DNA of 9,060 nt from Candidatus Mcinerneyibacteriota bacterium (GTDB lineage: Bacteria; AUK180; JAQVHJ01). This document shows, one piece after another, positions 1 through 5,742 of the stretch. The position numbers and the translations under genes are program-made. Below the pieces are notes generated by a model that was not told where the DNA came from, did not search any database, and saw only the letters and a program-made list of their open reading frames with translations. Each line of letters opens with the position of its first letter. Position 1 is the first letter of the stretch. The DNA lies in NCBI GenBank assembly GCA_030630935.1, contig DAOVMD010000095.1, positions 1 through 9,060 of the forward strand, read 5' to 3'.

Positions 1-554
1 TCCAGGACTTTCCTGAACTCATCCGTAATGAATCCCTTCGTCCATTTTGACCCGTCATCAGTTGTGAGATAAAACTTTAACCTTGGATCCTTCAATCTCC
101 AAAACTCCACAAACTCCACCTCGGTCGTTACGCCATAGAAAACATCAAGCGTTTTAATATCCTTCTTCTTCAGAAGTTCCTTAATCAAAAACGCAAATGG
201 TGCATAACCTATCCCGCCTGCAACAATCGCAAGCTGTGAAAGTTTTTGTTTAAAATTAAACCCATTCCCAAACGGTCCGAGAAAATTCACATAATCACCT
301 ATTGCCTTCTGACTTAAATACTCTGTAGATTTCCCAACAACCTTAAATAGAATTTTTATATGTTTTTTATCATCATAGAAAAAATGAATACTGAAAGGCC
401 TGTTCAATAATCCTGAAGACCCGATATCCATCTCCAAAAACTGACCCGGCTTCGGAGAAATTCGTTTGCCCAATAAATTCATTTTAAAAAGGAATGTATT
501 TAATGCAACTTCTTTATTCTCAACAACCTGAACCCTGAAACTATTCCTGGCCAT
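1..554 (-). CDS. pyrK: PyrK, dihydroorotate dehydrogenase electron-transfer subunit (partial, C-terminus outside window)
   Basis: FAD/[2Fe-2S] subunit that passes electrons from dihydroorotate oxidation in PyrD to NAD+ in the class 1B enzyme. The visible 184 residues have a ferredoxin-reductase fold layout: PGQF at 36-39, the flavin-binding NRPFSI at 51-56 (families usually have RRPFSI), GPFGNGF at 93-99, the NAD-binding GGIGYAP at 113-119, then TTDDGS and KGFITD at 164-178. Usual length is about 255-260 residues, so the cysteine cluster that binds [2Fe-2S] lies beyond the window edge and cannot be checked. The start is the ATG at 554, which overlaps the pyrC end by 14 bases. The upstream Shine-Dalgarno match is weak (GGA about 10 bases away), so translation may depend on pyrC. 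Related flavin subunits of sulfide dehydrogenase or transhydrogenase look similar; the position directly after pyrC favours PyrK. Confidence 0.9.
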   Translation of the reverse strand, partial: MARNSFRVQVVENKEVALNTFLFKMNLLGKRISPKPGQFLEMDIGSSGLLNRPFSIHFFYDDKKHIKILFKVVGKSTEYLSQKAIGDYVNFLGPFGNGFNFKQKLSQLAIVAGGIGYAPFAFLIKELLKKKDIKTLDVFYGVTTEVEFVEFWRLKDPRLKFYLTTDDGSKWTKGFITDEFRKVL

Positions 555-1824
555 AAACAATATTTCCATCAACAATTGTCCACAGAACACAGCCTTCGAG
601 TTCCATGTTCAGGAACGGTGAGTTTTTACTCTTTCCAATTAAGGTTTCGGTATTAACCACCCACTTGCATCCCGGATGAATCACAGTAACATCAGCTGGT
701 GCACCTTCCATGAGACTTCCTCCTTCAAGGTCGAATAATTCAGCAGGGCGTGTTGACATTCTATCTATAATTTCCATCCAGGTCATTTTCTTGGTTTTAA
801 TAAAATATTTTACCATTGCTGACAATGCCGTTTCCAAACCAACTACCCCGAACGGTGCGAGTGAAAACTCTCTTTCCTTCTCATCAATCCTATGCGGAGC
901 ATGGTCAGTTGCAAGAATATCAATTACCCCATCTTTAAATCCGGCTTCCAATGCACGCCTGTCTGCTTCTGTTCGAAGCGGGGGTTTCATCTTTAAGTTT
1001 GAATCAAAACCCATTATGTCATTCTCATTAAAGATTAAATGATGCGGTGTAACTTCACATGTGATTTTTAATTTCTTTTTCTTTGCAGTTTTAAGAATTT
1101 CTAAGGTTCGCTTGGAAGAGATATGTGCAAAGTGAACCGGTGCATCGAAATATTCCGAGAGTAAAATATCTCTCGCAACGATTACGGTTTCAGATATTGA
1201 CGGAATCCCCGGGAGCCCTAATGCAGTTGAGACATAACCCTCGTTTACCTGCCCGCCTTTTGAAAGATTATAATCTTCTGCATGCTCAATAAGTTTCAGG
1301 TTGAACATCTTCAGATACTCAAGGGCATTTCTCATGATCGCAGAGTTTTGAATACAATTCCCGTCATCTGAAACTGCAACAATTCCTTCCATCATCATTC
1401 GACCTGTCTCAGCTAATTCCTTACCTTCGAGATTCTTAGTAATTGCACCGATAGGATAAACCTTACAAAAACTTTCTTTCCCCTTCTCAACAACATACCT
1501 GATACTGCTGACAGAATCCAGAACAGGTTCTGTATTAGGCATACATAGAACAGTTGTGAACCCGCCTTTCACAGCAGCGGCAGTACCTGAATAAATATCT
1601 TCCTTGTCTTCATAGCCCGGGTCACGGAGATGAGTATGTGCATCTATAAGACCGGGTGAAACAATACAGCCCTTTGCATCAAGCACCTTTGTGCTTTTTG
1701 TTACGCGTGTAATTTTTTTTCTGACCTTTTTTACTATGCCATTTTCAATCAGGATATCAAGGTTTTTATTTGTATTTGAAGATGGGTCAACAACCCTGCC
1801 GTTTTTTATTAATAGCTTATTCAT
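541..1824 (-). CDS. pyrC: Dihydroorotase, type I (PyrC)
   Basis: Zinc amidohydrolase that cyclises N-carbamoyl-L-aspartate to L-dihydroorotate, the third step of UMP synthesis in the cytoplasm. It is a 427-residue TIM-barrel protein with all expected metal and catalytic residues: DAHTHLRDPG at 61-70 (His63, His65), SDDG at 152-155 (Asp153), EHAED with His181, HISS with His234, and TDHAPH at 306-311 (Asp307). The numbering matches type I enzymes such as that of Aquifex almost exactly. The C-terminal part, from about 365, is the small beta domain typical of the superfamily (EGAPADVTV). The start ATG overlaps the end of pyrB by 8 bases and has a strong AGGAGG five bases upstream, inside pyrB. 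In Aquifex, type I dihydroorotase works as a complex with aspartate transcarbamoylase; adjacency and overlap with pyrB fit that but do not prove it. Confidence 0.97.
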   Translation of the reverse strand: MNKLLIKNGRVVDPSSNTNKNLDILIENGIVKKVRKKITRVTKSTKVLDAKGCIVSPGLIDAHTHLRDPGYEDKEDIYSGTAAAVKGGFTTVLCMPNTEPVLDSVSSIRYVVEKGKESFCKVYPIGAITKNLEGKELAETGRMMMEGIVAVSDDGNCIQNSAIMRNALEYLKMFNLKLIEHAEDYNLSKGGQVNEGYVSTALGLPGIPSISETVIVARDILLSEYFDAPVHFAHISSKRTLEILKTAKKKKLKITCEVTPHHLIFNENDIMGFDSNLKMKPPLRTEADRRALEAGFKDGVIDILATDHAPHRIDEKEREFSLAPFGVVGLETALSAMVKYFIKTKKMTWMEIIDRMSTRPAELFDLEGGSLMEGAPADVTVIHPGCKWVVNTETLIGKSKNSPFLNMELEGCVLWTIVDGNIVYGQE

Positions 1825-2752
1825 CTTTACCTCCTACCAGAAAATATAAAAGTGACATCCTGACTGCAACTCCATTCGTAACCTGCTCATCAATCACGGA
1901 ATATACAGAGTCCGCAACCTCCGATTCAATCTCCACACCACGGTTAATAGGACCAGGATGCATCAGAAGAACATCAGGTTTTGCAAGAGATAACCGCTCT
2001 CTGTTAATCTGGAAAAATTGTGCATACTCCAAAATTGTCGGGAGCAGTCCTTGTTTCTGGCGTTCAAATTGAATCCGCAAACCCATAACAACATCTGCAT
2101 CCGTGATGGCTTCTTCAACATTATACGTAACACTAACATTGAATTTCTCAATGTATCTCGGGAGTAACGTGGATGGACCGCATAAAACGACTTCTGCTCC
2201 AAGCCGGGTTAAACCTTCAATGTTAGACCTTACAACACGGCTGTGTTTAATGTCGCCTATGATCGCAACTTTCAAACCCTTAAACCCGCCCTTCTTCTCA
2301 TAAATAGTGTACATATCAAGAAGTGCCTGAGTAGGATGGGAATGGGCTCCGTCACCGCCGTTTAAGACCGCGCCTTTAATATACTTGGCCACAAGTTGGG
2401 CGGACCCGGGATAACTGTGACGCATTACAAAAACATCTGCTGCCATAGCTTCAAGAGTCCTGACAGTATCTTTCAATGACTCGGATTTCTTCAAACTGCT
2501 CGTGGATGCGGAAAAGTTTACAACATCCGCACTCAAACGCTTCGCTGCAAGCTCAAATGAAATCTTTGTCCGAGTCGAAGCTTCAAAGAATAAAAGAACA
2601 ACTGTCTTACCTCTTAAGGCAGGAACCTTTTTGATATCCCTTCCTAAAACTTCTTTGAAACTTTTTGCTTCTTCAAGAATCATTATAATCTCATCATTGG
2701 TTAAATCATCCATTGTAATGAGATGCCTGACTGCCTTTGCCTTAACTGTCAT
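1817..2752 (-). CDS. pyrB: Aspartate carbamoyltransferase catalytic chain (PyrB)
   Basis: Transfers the carbamoyl group from carbamoyl phosphate to L-aspartate, the committed step of pyrimidine synthesis. At 311 residues it has the usual catalytic-chain length. The N-terminal carbamoyl-phosphate domain shows FFEASTRT at 55-62 (Ser-Thr-Arg-Thr phosphate loop), a Ser/Lys loop around 84-92 contributed to the neighbouring active site, and HPTQALLD at 139-146. The C-terminal aspartate domain shows GDIKHSRVVRSN at 166-177, LRIQFERQ at 225-232 and HPGPINRGVEI at 265-275. The aspartate-binding pattern distinguishes it from ornithine carbamoyltransferase. No regulatory chain gene (pyrI) is seen in the window. 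The ATG has AAGGGAG nine bases upstream, and the gene follows pyrR after a 42-base gap. Co-transcription with pyrR suggests pyrimidine-responsive expression. Confidence 0.97.
   Translation of the reverse strand: MTVKAKAVRHLITMDDLTNDEIIMILEEAKSFKEVLGRDIKKVPALRGKTVVLLFFEASTRTKISFELAAKRLSADVVNFSASTSSLKKSESLKDTVRTLEAMAADVFVMRHSYPGSAQLVAKYIKGAVLNGGDGAHSHPTQALLDMYTIYEKKGGFKGLKVAIIGDIKHSRVVRSNIEGLTRLGAEVVLCGPSTLLPRYIEKFNVSVTYNVEEAITDADVVMGLRIQFERQKQGLLPTILEYAQFFQINRERLSLAKPDVLLMHPGPINRGVEIESEVADSVYSVIDEQVTNGVAVRMSLLYFLVGGKDE
1829..1835 (-). promoter_or_regulatory. Ribosome binding site of pyrC, inside the end of pyrB
   Basis: The minus strand reads AGGAGGT immediately before the spacer to the pyrC ATG at 1824. 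It is the strongest Shine-Dalgarno match in the pyr group and lies within the last codons of pyrB. It fixes the pyrC start and implies coupled or independent re-initiation at this overlap. Confidence 0.8.
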
Positions 2753-2794: not shown

Positions 2795-3628
2795 TTATTT
2801 CTTCTTTTTCTTACCTGATTTCTTGGTCCTTGTTTTAACTGACTGCTTTGCCTTTGTTTTGACTGACTGCTTCGCAGTCTTTTTTGCTTTTGTTCGAACC
2901 GGTTTCTTGACTGACTTTTTTGCCTTTGATTTTGCCGGGTTCTTAGCTTTTTTACTAACCAACTTTTTAGTTTTTGTTCGAGATGGGGTTTTACCTTTTT
3001 TACTAGCCAGCTTTGAAGTTTTTTTCCGAGCCTGGGTTTTACCCTTTTTTCTAGCCGGCTTTGAAGCCGGTTTGGCGGAAGATGGTTTTTCATCCCTGAC
3101 AATAATAAAGACACCGTACTTTTTATCGACCTCTTTTAATTTAACTTCAATTATCTCATTTCCTGCAGTTGGGATTTTTCTACCGATATAATTTCCCATG
3201 ATCGGCAGTTCTCTGTGACCACGGTCAATAAGTACTGCCACCTGAATACTTGCAGGTCTTCCAAAGTCCATGATCTCATCCAGGGCTGCCCTGATTGTTC
3301 TACCTGTATAAAGCACATCATCAACAAGAATAACATCCTTCCCGTTCAGATTAAACGGGATATCGGTTGCGTTCACCATCGGAGCATTCCCGATTGTAGA
3401 AAGGTCATCTCTATACAGAGTAATATCAAGAATTCCAAATGGAACGTTTGTATTCTCTGATGAATCAATCTCTTCCTTTAATATCCTGCCTATTGGAACT
3501 CCGCGTCTCTGAATTCCAAGAATCACAAGATTCTTTGCACCATTGGATTGTTCAATTATCTCATGTGCCAATCGTTTCAATGTCCTGAACATATCTGCCT
3601 TGGACATAATCTGAGCTTTTACTTTCAT
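2795..3628 (-). CDS. pyrR: PyrR bifunctional regulator / uracil phosphoribosyltransferase with a long basic C-terminal tail
   Basis: PyrR family proteins bind pyr mRNA in a UMP/PRPP-dependent way and also make UMP from uracil. Residues 1-180 are a complete PyrR core that aligns along its length with the roughly 180-residue Bacillus protein: KRLAHEII at 18-25, DITLYRDDL at 68-76, the PRPP loop VILVDDVLYTGRT at 99-111, and DRGHRELPI at 135-143. Residues 181-277 are an added tail with 39 Lys and 5 Arg in 97 residues, no Asp or Glu, no aromatic residue, and a Lys5 end. Four 16-residue repeats span 194-257. This composition resembles histone H1-like bacterial proteins and suggests nucleic-acid binding; that is inference. 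The start ATG has GAGGAGA five bases upstream. It is the first gene of the pyr group, preceded by a 500-base non-coding region. Confidence 0.95.
   Translation of the reverse strand: MKVKAQIMSKADMFRTLKRLAHEIIEQSNGAKNLVILGIQRRGVPIGRILKEEIDSSENTNVPFGILDITLYRDDLSTIGNAPMVNATDIPFNLNGKDVILVDDVLYTGRTIRAALDEIMDFGRPASIQVAVLIDRGHRELPIMGNYIGRKIPTAGNEIIEVKLKEVDKKYGVFIIVRDEKPSSAKPASKPARKKGKTQARKKTSKLASKKGKTPSRTKTKKLVSKKAKNPAKSKAKKSVKKPVRTKAKKTAKQSVKTKAKQSVKTRTKKSGKKKKK
2798..3088 (-). repeat. Lys-rich repeat tract encoding the PyrR tail
   Basis: The DNA for residues 181-277 is internally repetitive. Four units of 48 bases lie at 3002-3049, 2954-3001, 2906-2953 and 2858-2905 and encode 16-residue units. 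The first two begin with KKGKT, the third with KKAKN; all end near (S/K)xxS or QSVK. A shorter 24-base period follows at 2819-2866, encoding two SVKT-initiated octets. The frame is kept throughout, which argues for a translated tail rather than decayed sequence. The unit number may vary between strains because such tracts expand and contract by slippage or recombination. Confidence 0.8.
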
Positions 3629-3633
3629 TTATT

Positions 3634-3640
3634 TCTCCTC
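3634..3640 (-). promoter_or_regulatory. Ribosome binding site of pyrR
   Basis: GAGGAGA on the minus strand, five bases before the ATG at 3628. It selects this ATG over the in-frame Met codon at residue 8, which lacks a comparable site. The first seven residues also fit the usual PyrR N-terminus. Confidence 0.75.
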
Positions 3641-3655
3641 TTGTTTTTTCAGGTA

Positions 3656-3676
3656 CTGTGAAATTTTTATTCACAG
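3656..3676 (-). promoter_or_regulatory. Perfect 7-bp inverted repeat in the pyrR leader
   Basis: CTGTGAA and TTCACAG flank a 7-base A/T loop, 28 bases upstream of the pyrR ATG and about 15 bases before its Shine-Dalgarno site. As RNA it would form a small hairpin; as DNA it could be an operator. The arms recall CRP/FNR-family half sites (TGTGA/TCACA), but the spacing is nine bases rather than six, so assignment to that family is not supported. Confidence 0.45.
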
Positions 3677-3732
3677 AAATTTGTTATTTATCGAATAAAA
3701 CGATCTTTATTAAATATTTACTTGTCACTCCT

Positions 3733-3774
3733 AAAAAAGTTAAACAAACAAACTCGCTTCGCTCAAACTTTTTT
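3733..3774. repeat. A-tract/T-tract inverted repeat, possible weak bidirectional terminator
   Basis: AAAAAAGTT (3733-3741) and AACTTTTTT (3766-3774) form a perfect 9-bp stem around a 24-base loop holding one copy of the GCTTCGC motif. Either strand would give a stem ending in T residues. The stem is almost all A-T, so terminator function is uncertain. Confidence 0.35.
3754..3763. repeat. TCGCTTCGCT motif, copy 1
   Basis: Reverse complement of the 10-base motif at 3986-3995. The complementary strand contains GCGAAGC, a heptamer known from physical studies of DNA to form an exceptionally stable mini-hairpin. It sits in the loop of the 3733-3774 stem. Confidence 0.45.
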
Positions 3775-3781
3775 ATTCACC

Positions 3782-3799
3782 ACCCCGAAAAAACGGGGT
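3782..3799. repeat. GC hairpin, 6-bp stem
   Basis: ACCCCG and CGGGGT surround six A residues. The minus strand carries GAGTTTA just before it, the same lead-in as the next hairpin at 3811-3834, so the two look like diverged copies of one palindromic unit. No T run follows on either strand. Confidence 0.5.
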
Positions 3800-3810
3800 A
3801 AACTCTGGAC

Positions 3811-3834
3811 ATCCCGAAGCAAAAAGTTCGGGAT
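3811..3834. repeat. GC hairpin, 8-bp stem
   Basis: ATCCCGAA and TTCGGGAT form a perfect 8-bp stem with an 8-base loop. Short CCCGAA/TTCGGG palindromes of this kind are recalled as common between genes in several FCB-group genomes, so an interspersed palindromic repeat is as likely as a regulator specific to pyrR. Lack of a following T run argues against a terminator. Confidence 0.55.
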
Positions 3835-3865
3835 AAACTCCGAAAAAAACAAAACAAAAAATAAA

Positions 3866-3900
3866 CTAACCACTGATCTCACGGAACACACTGAAAAAAA
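3866..3900. repeat. Interspersed-repeat-like stretch (CCACTGATCTCACGGAACAC type)
   Basis: The stretch resembles the CCACAGAG...ACACAGAG-type sequence found between genes in many bacteria and often mis-translated as Thr/Glu/His-rich short proteins. CAGTG occurs twice on the minus strand 18 bases apart, and an A7 run closes the element. Recognition is from memory, not from a search. Confidence 0.4.
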
Positions 3901-3985
3901 CTATTGCTCTAAACCAAAGCAGTGAAATCTTTAATGCAAATCGGTTTATCAATTAATAATTATCAATCATAAATCATAAATGTGT

Positions 3986-3995
3986 AGCGAAGCGA
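3986..3995. repeat. AGCGAAGCGA motif, copy 2 (inverted relative to copy 1)
   Basis: Exact inverted copy of 3754-3763, about 220 bases away in the same intergenic region. The two could pair in a long transcript. More probably they belong to a family of short dispersed motifs; a genome-wide count would tell. Confidence 0.45.
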
Positions 3996-4128
3996 AACTA
4001 TGTCAAAGAACTGATTTATATTAAATCATCTTATTAATGAACTTTCGAAACTGCATAAGTAAGAAAAGAGCTTCTTCATATATATACTTTTAAGGTAGTT
4101 TCATTTTCATATTCTTTCATAGCATTTT

Positions 4129-5742
4129 TCAAACCTCTTGTTTTTTCAGCATTGCTTCTGCAAAACCCACAAAAAGCGGGTGCGGTGTTAGTGGTCGGGA
4201 TTGAAATTCAGGGTGGAATTGACATCCAATGAAGAATGGATGATCCTTCAGCTCTACAATCTCAACCAGGTTATTTTTTGGACAGACTCCGGAGACCAAT
4301 AAACCATTTTCAATAAAATCCTTTTTATAATCATTATTAAATTCGTATCTATGTCTGTGTCTCTCCAGAATCAGGTTTGTATCATATAATTTATAAGCGG
4401 TTGAATTTTTCTTAAGTTTACACGGGAAAGACCCAAGCCGCATCGTCCCGCCCTTACTGTTAATATCCTTTTGAGTCTCCTGCAGATCGATTACGGGGAA
4501 CTTTGTTTTCTCATCCCACTCTGTGGAGTTTGCATCTTTAAGTTTACAAACATTCCTGGCAAACTCAATTACTGCAGCCTGCATTCCCAGGCAAATCCCG
4601 AGGAACGGCAGATTATTCTCGCGTGCAAATTGCACCGCATTAATCTTCCCTTCAATTCCTCTCATTCCAAACCCACCGGGTACAAGAATCCCGTCAATAT
4701 CTTTAAGGTCTTTTTCGAAACCGTCTTTCTCCAGTGACTCTGACTCGATCCATTTTATCTCTGCTTTTGCATTGAAAAAAGCAGCAGCATGAATCAAGGA
4801 TTGCGTAATACTTTTATATGAATCTACAATATTTGTGTATTTCCCAACAACTCCAATTTTAATTGTTTTTTTCGGCTCAATTAATTTCTTTACAAAAACC
4901 TTCCAATTCTGCAGAATTTTATTTGATGTATCCTTTGGTTTAATATCTAATAATTTCATAATCCTCTTTTCAATTAACCTTTTCGAAAGTATAATAGGTA
5001 CATAATATGTCGTTGTCACATCAGGAATGGGAATCACATGATCAACCGGAACATTGCAGAATAAAGATATCTTCTCCTTAACTTCCTTCCCAATATCTAC
5101 GGATGACCTGCATAAAAGGATATCAGGCTGGATACCTATTCTTCTTAATTCATTCACGCTATGCTGAGTTGGTTTTGTCTTCACTTCACCAATCGTTTCG
5201 AGGAATGGAACAAGGGTCAGGTGAATATAAAGAACATCTGTTCTTTTGAAATCAAGCCTGAACTGCCTGATCGCTTCGAGAAACGGTTGGCTTTCAATAT
5301 CTCCGACCGTGCCCCCGACTTCTGCAATTAAAATGTCCGGGGCATCCTTCTTCATTAAATAATGAAGTGAATCTTTAATTGCATTTGTAATATGTGGAAC
5401 TACCTGAACCGTATTACCCAAAAAATCGCCCCTGCGCTCCTTCTTAATTACAGAGAAATAAATCTTACCCGTTGTAACATTATTACTTGCGCTCGTATCC
5501 TTATCAAGAAATCTTTCGTAATGCCCGAGGTCAAGGTCTGTCTCTGCCCCGTCAACTGTAACAAATACTTCCCCGTGCTGGAACGGGTTCATTGTTCCCG
5601 AATCAACATTTATATACGGATCAAACTTTAACATTGACACGTCAAAACCTAAATTACGTAACAACATCCCAATTGACGCAGCGGAAATACCTTTCCCGAG
5701 CGATGACACAACTCCACCGGTTACAAAAATGAATTTTTTCAT
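4129..5742 (-). CDS. pyrG: CTP synthase (PyrG)
   Basis: Makes CTP from UTP, ATP and glutamine. The 537-residue protein has both family domains. The N-terminal synthetase domain has GGVVSSLGKGIS at 9-20, DPYINVDSGTMNPFQHGEVF at 41-60, the ERRGDFLGNTVQVVPHIT segment at 102-119 and EVGGTVGDIES at 141-151. The C-terminal class I glutamine amidotransferase domain, from about 295, has GGFGMRG at 356-362, the nucleophile loop GICLGMQ at 382-388 (Cys384), and HPEF at 510-513 (His510, Glu512). Length and triad are normal. The ATG overlaps the purD stop in an ATGA arrangement, with AAGGA seven bases upstream. It is the last gene of the purine group, so CTP synthesis appears co-expressed with purine synthesis rather than with the pyr group next door. 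Confidence 0.98.
   Translation of the reverse strand: MKKFIFVTGGVVSSLGKGISAASIGMLLRNLGFDVSMLKFDPYINVDSGTMNPFQHGEVFVTVDGAETDLDLGHYERFLDKDTSASNNVTTGKIYFSVIKKERRGDFLGNTVQVVPHITNAIKDSLHYLMKKDAPDILIAEVGGTVGDIESQPFLEAIRQFRLDFKRTDVLYIHLTLVPFLETIGEVKTKPTQHSVNELRRIGIQPDILLCRSSVDIGKEVKEKISLFCNVPVDHVIPIPDVTTTYYVPIILSKRLIEKRIMKLLDIKPKDTSNKILQNWKVFVKKLIEPKKTIKIGVVGKYTNIVDSYKSITQSLIHAAAFFNAKAEIKWIESESLEKDGFEKDLKDIDGILVPGGFGMRGIEGKINAVQFARENNLPFLGICLGMQAAVIEFARNVCKLKDANSTEWDEKTKFPVIDLQETQKDINSKGGTMRLGSFPCKLKKNSTAYKLYDTNLILERHRHRYEFNNDYKKDFIENGLLVSGVCPKNNLVEIVELKDHPFFIGCQFHPEFQSRPLTPHPLFVGFAEAMLKKQEV

Follow-up and report, generated by a model that had tools for sequence, protein, structure and literature searches.

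The PyrR encoded in this Candidatus Mcinerneyibacteriota genome continues in frame from an ordinary core of 180 residues into a polycationic tail of 97. By analogy with lysine-rich tails on other bacterial proteins, we put at about one in two the probability that this tail, confined to one lineage and expanded by repeats, tethers an otherwise ordinary PyrR to nucleic acid.

The pyrR gene and the PyrR core

In the window (the whole 9,060-nt stretch analyzed), the main genes between positions 3 and 9060 all lie on the minus strand as a compact purine-pyrimidine cluster, in the order purC, purE, purB, purD (by eye), then pyrG, pyrR, pyrB, pyrC, and a pyrK-like gene. pyrR is linked to pyrimidine biosynthesis genes as pyrG-pyrR-pyrB-pyrC on one strand, and the relevant features are as follows.

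541 to 1824, minus strand: pyrC (dihydroorotase)
1817 to 2752, minus strand: pyrB (aspartate carbamoyltransferase), next downstream, beginning 42 nt past the pyrR stop codon
2795 to 3628, minus strand: pyrR, single frame with ATG start, 277 codons, 277 aa
3089 to 3628, minus strand: PyrR core (uracil phosphoribosyltransferase/pyr regulator), residues 1 to 180, from profile and structure matches
2798 to 3088, minus strand: polycationic tail, residues 181 to 277, with 39 K, 5 R, 12 S, 11 A, 10 T, 6 P, and 0 D/E
2912 to 3055, minus strand: three 16-residue tandem repeats, ARKKGKTQARKKTSKL, ASKKGKTPSRTKTKKL, and VSKKAKNPAKSKAKKS
2816 to 2887, minus strand: three 8-residue repeats, AKKTAKQS, VKTKAKQS, and VKTRTKKS
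2798 to 2812, minus strand: C-terminal Lys5 (KKKKK)
3629 to 4128, minus strand: pyrG-pyrR gap, a possible leader of 500 nt, with no PyrR-binding RNA element detected
4129 to 5742, minus strand: pyrG (CTP synthase), neighbor upstream of pyrR

Residues 1 to 180 are a complete, ordinary PyrR. They scored 234.7 bits (E = 4.7e-70) against the NCBIfam PyrR profile NF003549, above its cut-off of 138, and their best structure matches were solved PyrR structures (1ufr, E = 4e-56). The PRPP-binding loop VILVDDVLYTGRT is intact, the invariant core columns of a 24-sequence PyrR alignment are present, and the AlphaFold model assigns the core pLDDT values of mostly 84 to 98, with one weaker loop. An earlier note on this DNA had described a complete 180-residue core and a 97-residue tail with 44 basic and no acidic residues, ending in Lys5; both descriptions held, the core by its profile and structure matches and the tail as part of the single 277-aa frame.

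Composition and repeats of the tail

The 97 residues include 44 K/R and no acidic residue, for a net charge of +44. Their DNA is a tandem repeat with a period of 24/48 nt, and residue identity within the tail peaks at 34% at lag 8 and 47% at lag 16, against ~15% at unrelated lags. The tail is predicted to be disordered, with pLDDT of ~50 and no secondary structure in the AlphaFold model. Searched alone against Pfam profiles it matched no family at E ≤ 1, and it does not belong to the linker-histone or Hc2 profiles. The label "histone H1-like" used in the earlier note is therefore apt for composition and not for histone family: the tail is lysine-rich, predicted to be disordered, and repeat-built like H1 and Hc2, which is resemblance rather than membership.

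Between adjacent repeats, ~27 codons have changed, both synonymously and non-synonymously, and none of them to an acidic residue. Under random point mutation of the tail codons, ~11% acidic changes are expected, so that 0 of ~27 corresponds by our own arithmetic to roughly P = 0.04, which is modest. The repeat comparison suggests, with modest weight, that charge has been kept, and says little for kept sequence. Non-synonymous differences between the repeats are common, as expected under weak constraint, and with the 24/48-nt tandem repeats they favor the main rival to a tether, in which additional residues at the PyrR C terminus are tolerated and slippage multiplied A-rich in-frame repeats that have no specific function. 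Such near-neutral growth is possible, though we place it clearly below even odds: 97 codons without an acidic residue or a stop speak against it, as does the net charge of +44, which probably has some biochemical effect. If growth was neutral, the gene would cleanly exemplify how a low-complexity tail can grow on an enzyme that is itself conserved.

Distribution of the tail among relatives

The phylum was represented by seven genomes, two in the PyrR-tailed family and five in its sister family. The only other genome of the PyrR-tailed family, from a different genus (JAQVHJ010000043.1, isolate STE_202; L002/L031), has a PyrR core 84% identical to that of the window, followed in the same frame by a tail of 33 residues with 15 K/R and 1 D/E. 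No alignment was obtained between the tail DNA of this sister genus and that of the window, and the basic character is the same, which suggests that composition was kept and sequence was not; retention of basic composition without alignable DNA also counts against near-neutral growth. The PyrRs of the five sister-family genomes end near residue 181, so that conservation within the lineage extends to the sister genus, in shorter form, and not to the sister family.

In other phyla, a basic tail was absent from ~60 PyrRs read to the stop codon and from the 20 PyrRs with the most suspicious open frames, and most open frames in a longer list of PyrRs were too short to fit one. Among the homologues examined, only two genomes carried a basic tail, those of the window and of the sister genus. 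The PyrR of a Thermotogae MAG (L067, from about 1632) has an unrelated, neutral tandem-repeat tail with GSAGGTHNSGIR repeats and GAGSAGGTHNSGIR units. This tail indicates that the PyrR C terminus tolerates growth, a point in favor of near-neutral expansion.

A frameshift or misassembly could have fused a repeat to the PyrR frame, since the stretch is repetitive and the genome is a draft of 471 contigs at 80% completeness. Assembly error is unlikely because the separate sister-genus genome has the same gene with an in-frame basic tail and the same pyrR-pyrB-pyrC order; the start of pyrB 42 nt past the pyrR stop codon argues against it as well. Artefact, the least probable of all the explanations considered here, is largely refuted; misassembly may still affect the exact number of repeats. 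Sequence comparison confirms that the basic PyrR tail is real and lineage-restricted.

PyrR-binding RNA and pyr control

The classical PyrR mechanism is UMP-dependent binding of an anti-antiterminator (PMC7430163). The PyrR-binding RNA element, RF00515, was found neither in the window, even at E ≤ 1, nor near the pyrR genes of relatives, nor across the seven phylum genomes, whether their PyrR was tailed or untailed. It was present in 11 of 60 genomes searched, all 11 from other phyla, and at the sensitivity used it went undetected in most PyrR-bearing genomes of other phyla. The leader, compared with that of the sister genus, gave no alignable conserved element. Bacillus-type attenuation is thus not supported in the window genome, where the pyr leader lacks a detectable RF00515; this element is not needed for membership in the protein family.

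It had been proposed in the earlier note that the tail might replace a sequence-specific attenuator, in which case it would have assumed pyr operon regulation once that attenuator was lost. The lack of a PyrR-binding RNA element in the window genome and its relatives would fit, but the five untailed PyrRs of the sister family are equally without a detectable element, so that lack of the element and presence of the tail do not go together, and the tail cannot be called an attenuator replacement. Non-detection of RF00515 in most other-phylum PyrR genomes at this sensitivity weakens the proposal further. We consider it very unlikely; on these sequences the two traits are unlinked, and there is no obvious sign that an attenuator gave way to the tail. 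It is also unlikely that the tail supplies specific recognition of pyr mRNA.

We considered whether loss of the conserved Arg in 'LPIRAD', replaced by Met in the window PyrR, points to lost RNA binding, and dropped the idea because an other-phylum PyrR beside a strong RF00515 (L013/G033) has Phe there. In the remaining aligned PyrRs of the phylum this residue is Met, Leu, or Phe.

Lysine-rich modules elsewhere in the phylum

The window genome encodes a free-standing 147-residue protein with AKKKPAKKKVVKKK repeats (L127:770-1213, minus strand, contig C29), which gave a weak Hc2 match (PF07382) below the cut-off. Its relatives are L223 in the sister genus, matching PF07382 at the cut-off, and the 57-residue L224 in G004 of the sister family. 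Lysine-rich linkers were also seen in the window genome in CheA (L094:8188-10578, minus strand), in the N-terminal part of IF-2 (L085:12170-14404, plus strand), and ahead of a likely membrane segment in a SPOR-domain protein (L088:2844-5969, plus strand). In the sister family, an OmpA-like outer-membrane protein (by eye; L229, G002) has an internal K-rich linker before its OmpA-like domain.

A census of basic tails covered 21% of the window genome (674 kb, 528 non-overlapping ORFs of at least 90 aa). The C-terminal 30-mer had a net charge of at least +9 in ~1% of these ORFs, and no long basic tail on an enzyme was found in this 21%. When the window genome was searched with the tail, only the tail itself matched, a composition-biased query that also missed the genome's own Hc2-like protein. 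A KK-spaced DNA pattern scored across the phylum occurred as often as its reversed control and was uninformative.

Long tails were found on PreA, a dihydropyrimidine dehydrogenase subunit, which carries K-rich repeat tails of ~95 to 215 residues in four of the five sister-family genomes (L230, L231, L233, and L234 in G002, G003, G006, and G004, respectively). No lysine-rich tail was present on PreA of the PyrR-tailed family or on 18 PreA-like proteins of other phyla. The lysine-rich module is a recurrent phylum feature that settles on different hosts. Since phylum relatives bear similar tails on other proteins, the PyrR tail represents a lineage habit and not a mechanism newly shown for PyrR. 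The earlier note had named the same tail on many unrelated proteins of the genome as a refutation; this was partly borne out, in that comparable lysine-rich tails or linkers were seen in the phylum (PreA, CheA, IF-2, OmpA-family, and Hc2-like proteins), but in the 21% of the window genome covered by the census long tails are rare.

The occurrence of two pyrimidine-enzyme hosts in complementary families is striking and, with seven genomes only, could be chance. None of the seven genomes bears a tail on both PyrR and PreA. It seems doubtful that the phylum has repeatedly equipped its enzymes for uracil and related pyrimidines with polycationic tethers to nucleic acid, PyrR in the one family and PreA in the other. 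If it had, RNA or the nucleoid would be the physical site of pyrimidine salvage and breakdown.

Proposed role of the tail

Non-specific RNA/DNA affinity, as first suggested in the earlier note, is by analogy the most plausible role for the tail. A short basic tail would have arisen in the ancestor of the PyrR-tailed family and lengthened in the window lineage through in-frame duplication of 24/48-nt units. It may bind nucleic acid through charge, independently of sequence, and so hold the enzyme close to RNA or the nucleoid, where PyrR could become locally more concentrated on transcripts or, alternatively, uracil salvage could be brought near RNA turnover. There are precedents for these steps in other bacteria: the C-terminal domain of AlgP is H1-like, binds DNA, and is required for granule spacing (PMC9239181), the tail of PhaF is unfolded and binds DNA (PMC3574117), lysine repeats stabilize TopA on DNA (PMC7398561), and Hc2 variation consists of in-frame repeat duplication (PMC2848022). 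A tether is favored by the combination of core and tail, the repeats, the predicted disorder, the sister-genus tail, and the basic modules elsewhere in the lineage; against it we counted the restriction to two tailed genomes, the frequent non-synonymous repeat changes, and the lack of a match to a DNA-binding family.

Polyphosphate was weighed as another ligand, as with the granule association of AlgP, and lysine-rich sequences of other bacteria bind polyphosphate (PMC9239181; PMC12077175). We hold such a partner for the PyrR tail to be very improbable, because neither PPK1 (PF02503) nor PPK2 (PF03976) was found in the seven phylum genomes, five of which are at least 90% complete, and controls were detected.

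If the tail is a nucleic-acid tether, a metabolic regulator would have gained non-specific affinity as its repeats multiplied; taken together with the tails on PreA, this would hint at a phylum localizing its pyrimidine metabolism. The PyrR tail also serves as a natural test case for the way in which unrelated bacterial proteins acquire H1-like tails.

Comparison with known systems

PyrR with an H1-like tail is a combination of known kinds for which we found no precedent here, and not a new system; a literature search of open-licence papers returned no PyrR with such a tail, in agreement with the earlier note. The window PyrR resembles known PyrRs (NCBIfam PRK05205; PDB 1ufr, 1non, and 1a3c) in core sequence, PRPP loop, and position before pyrB-pyrC. 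Known PyrR models and solved chains have 171 to 201 residues, whereas the window PyrR has 97 extra basic residues and no PyrR-binding RNA was found in its genome.

In Pseudomonas AlgP and PhaF, too, a folded domain carries a C-terminal tail that is disordered, K-rich, and built of repeats; these are KPAA there, whereas the window PyrR, a nucleotide enzyme, has 8/16-residue repeats that are S/T-rich and poorer in P/A. Chlamydial Hc2 and Bordetella BpH1 (PF07382) share the lysine-rich repeats, which in Hc2 vary in number in frame, but they are free-standing and built of pentamers, and the PyrR tail gave no PF07382 match while separate small proteins of the phylum did. Actinobacterial topoisomerase I has H1-like lysine repeats at the C terminus of an enzyme; TopA acts on DNA, in contrast to PyrR, which acts on uracil/PRPP and pyr mRNA. 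The sister-family PreA is a pyrimidine enzyme of the same phylum with a long K-rich repeat tail, yet that tail is of the KKxxPKK type, has an Hc2-like match in two genomes, and occurs where PyrR is untailed.
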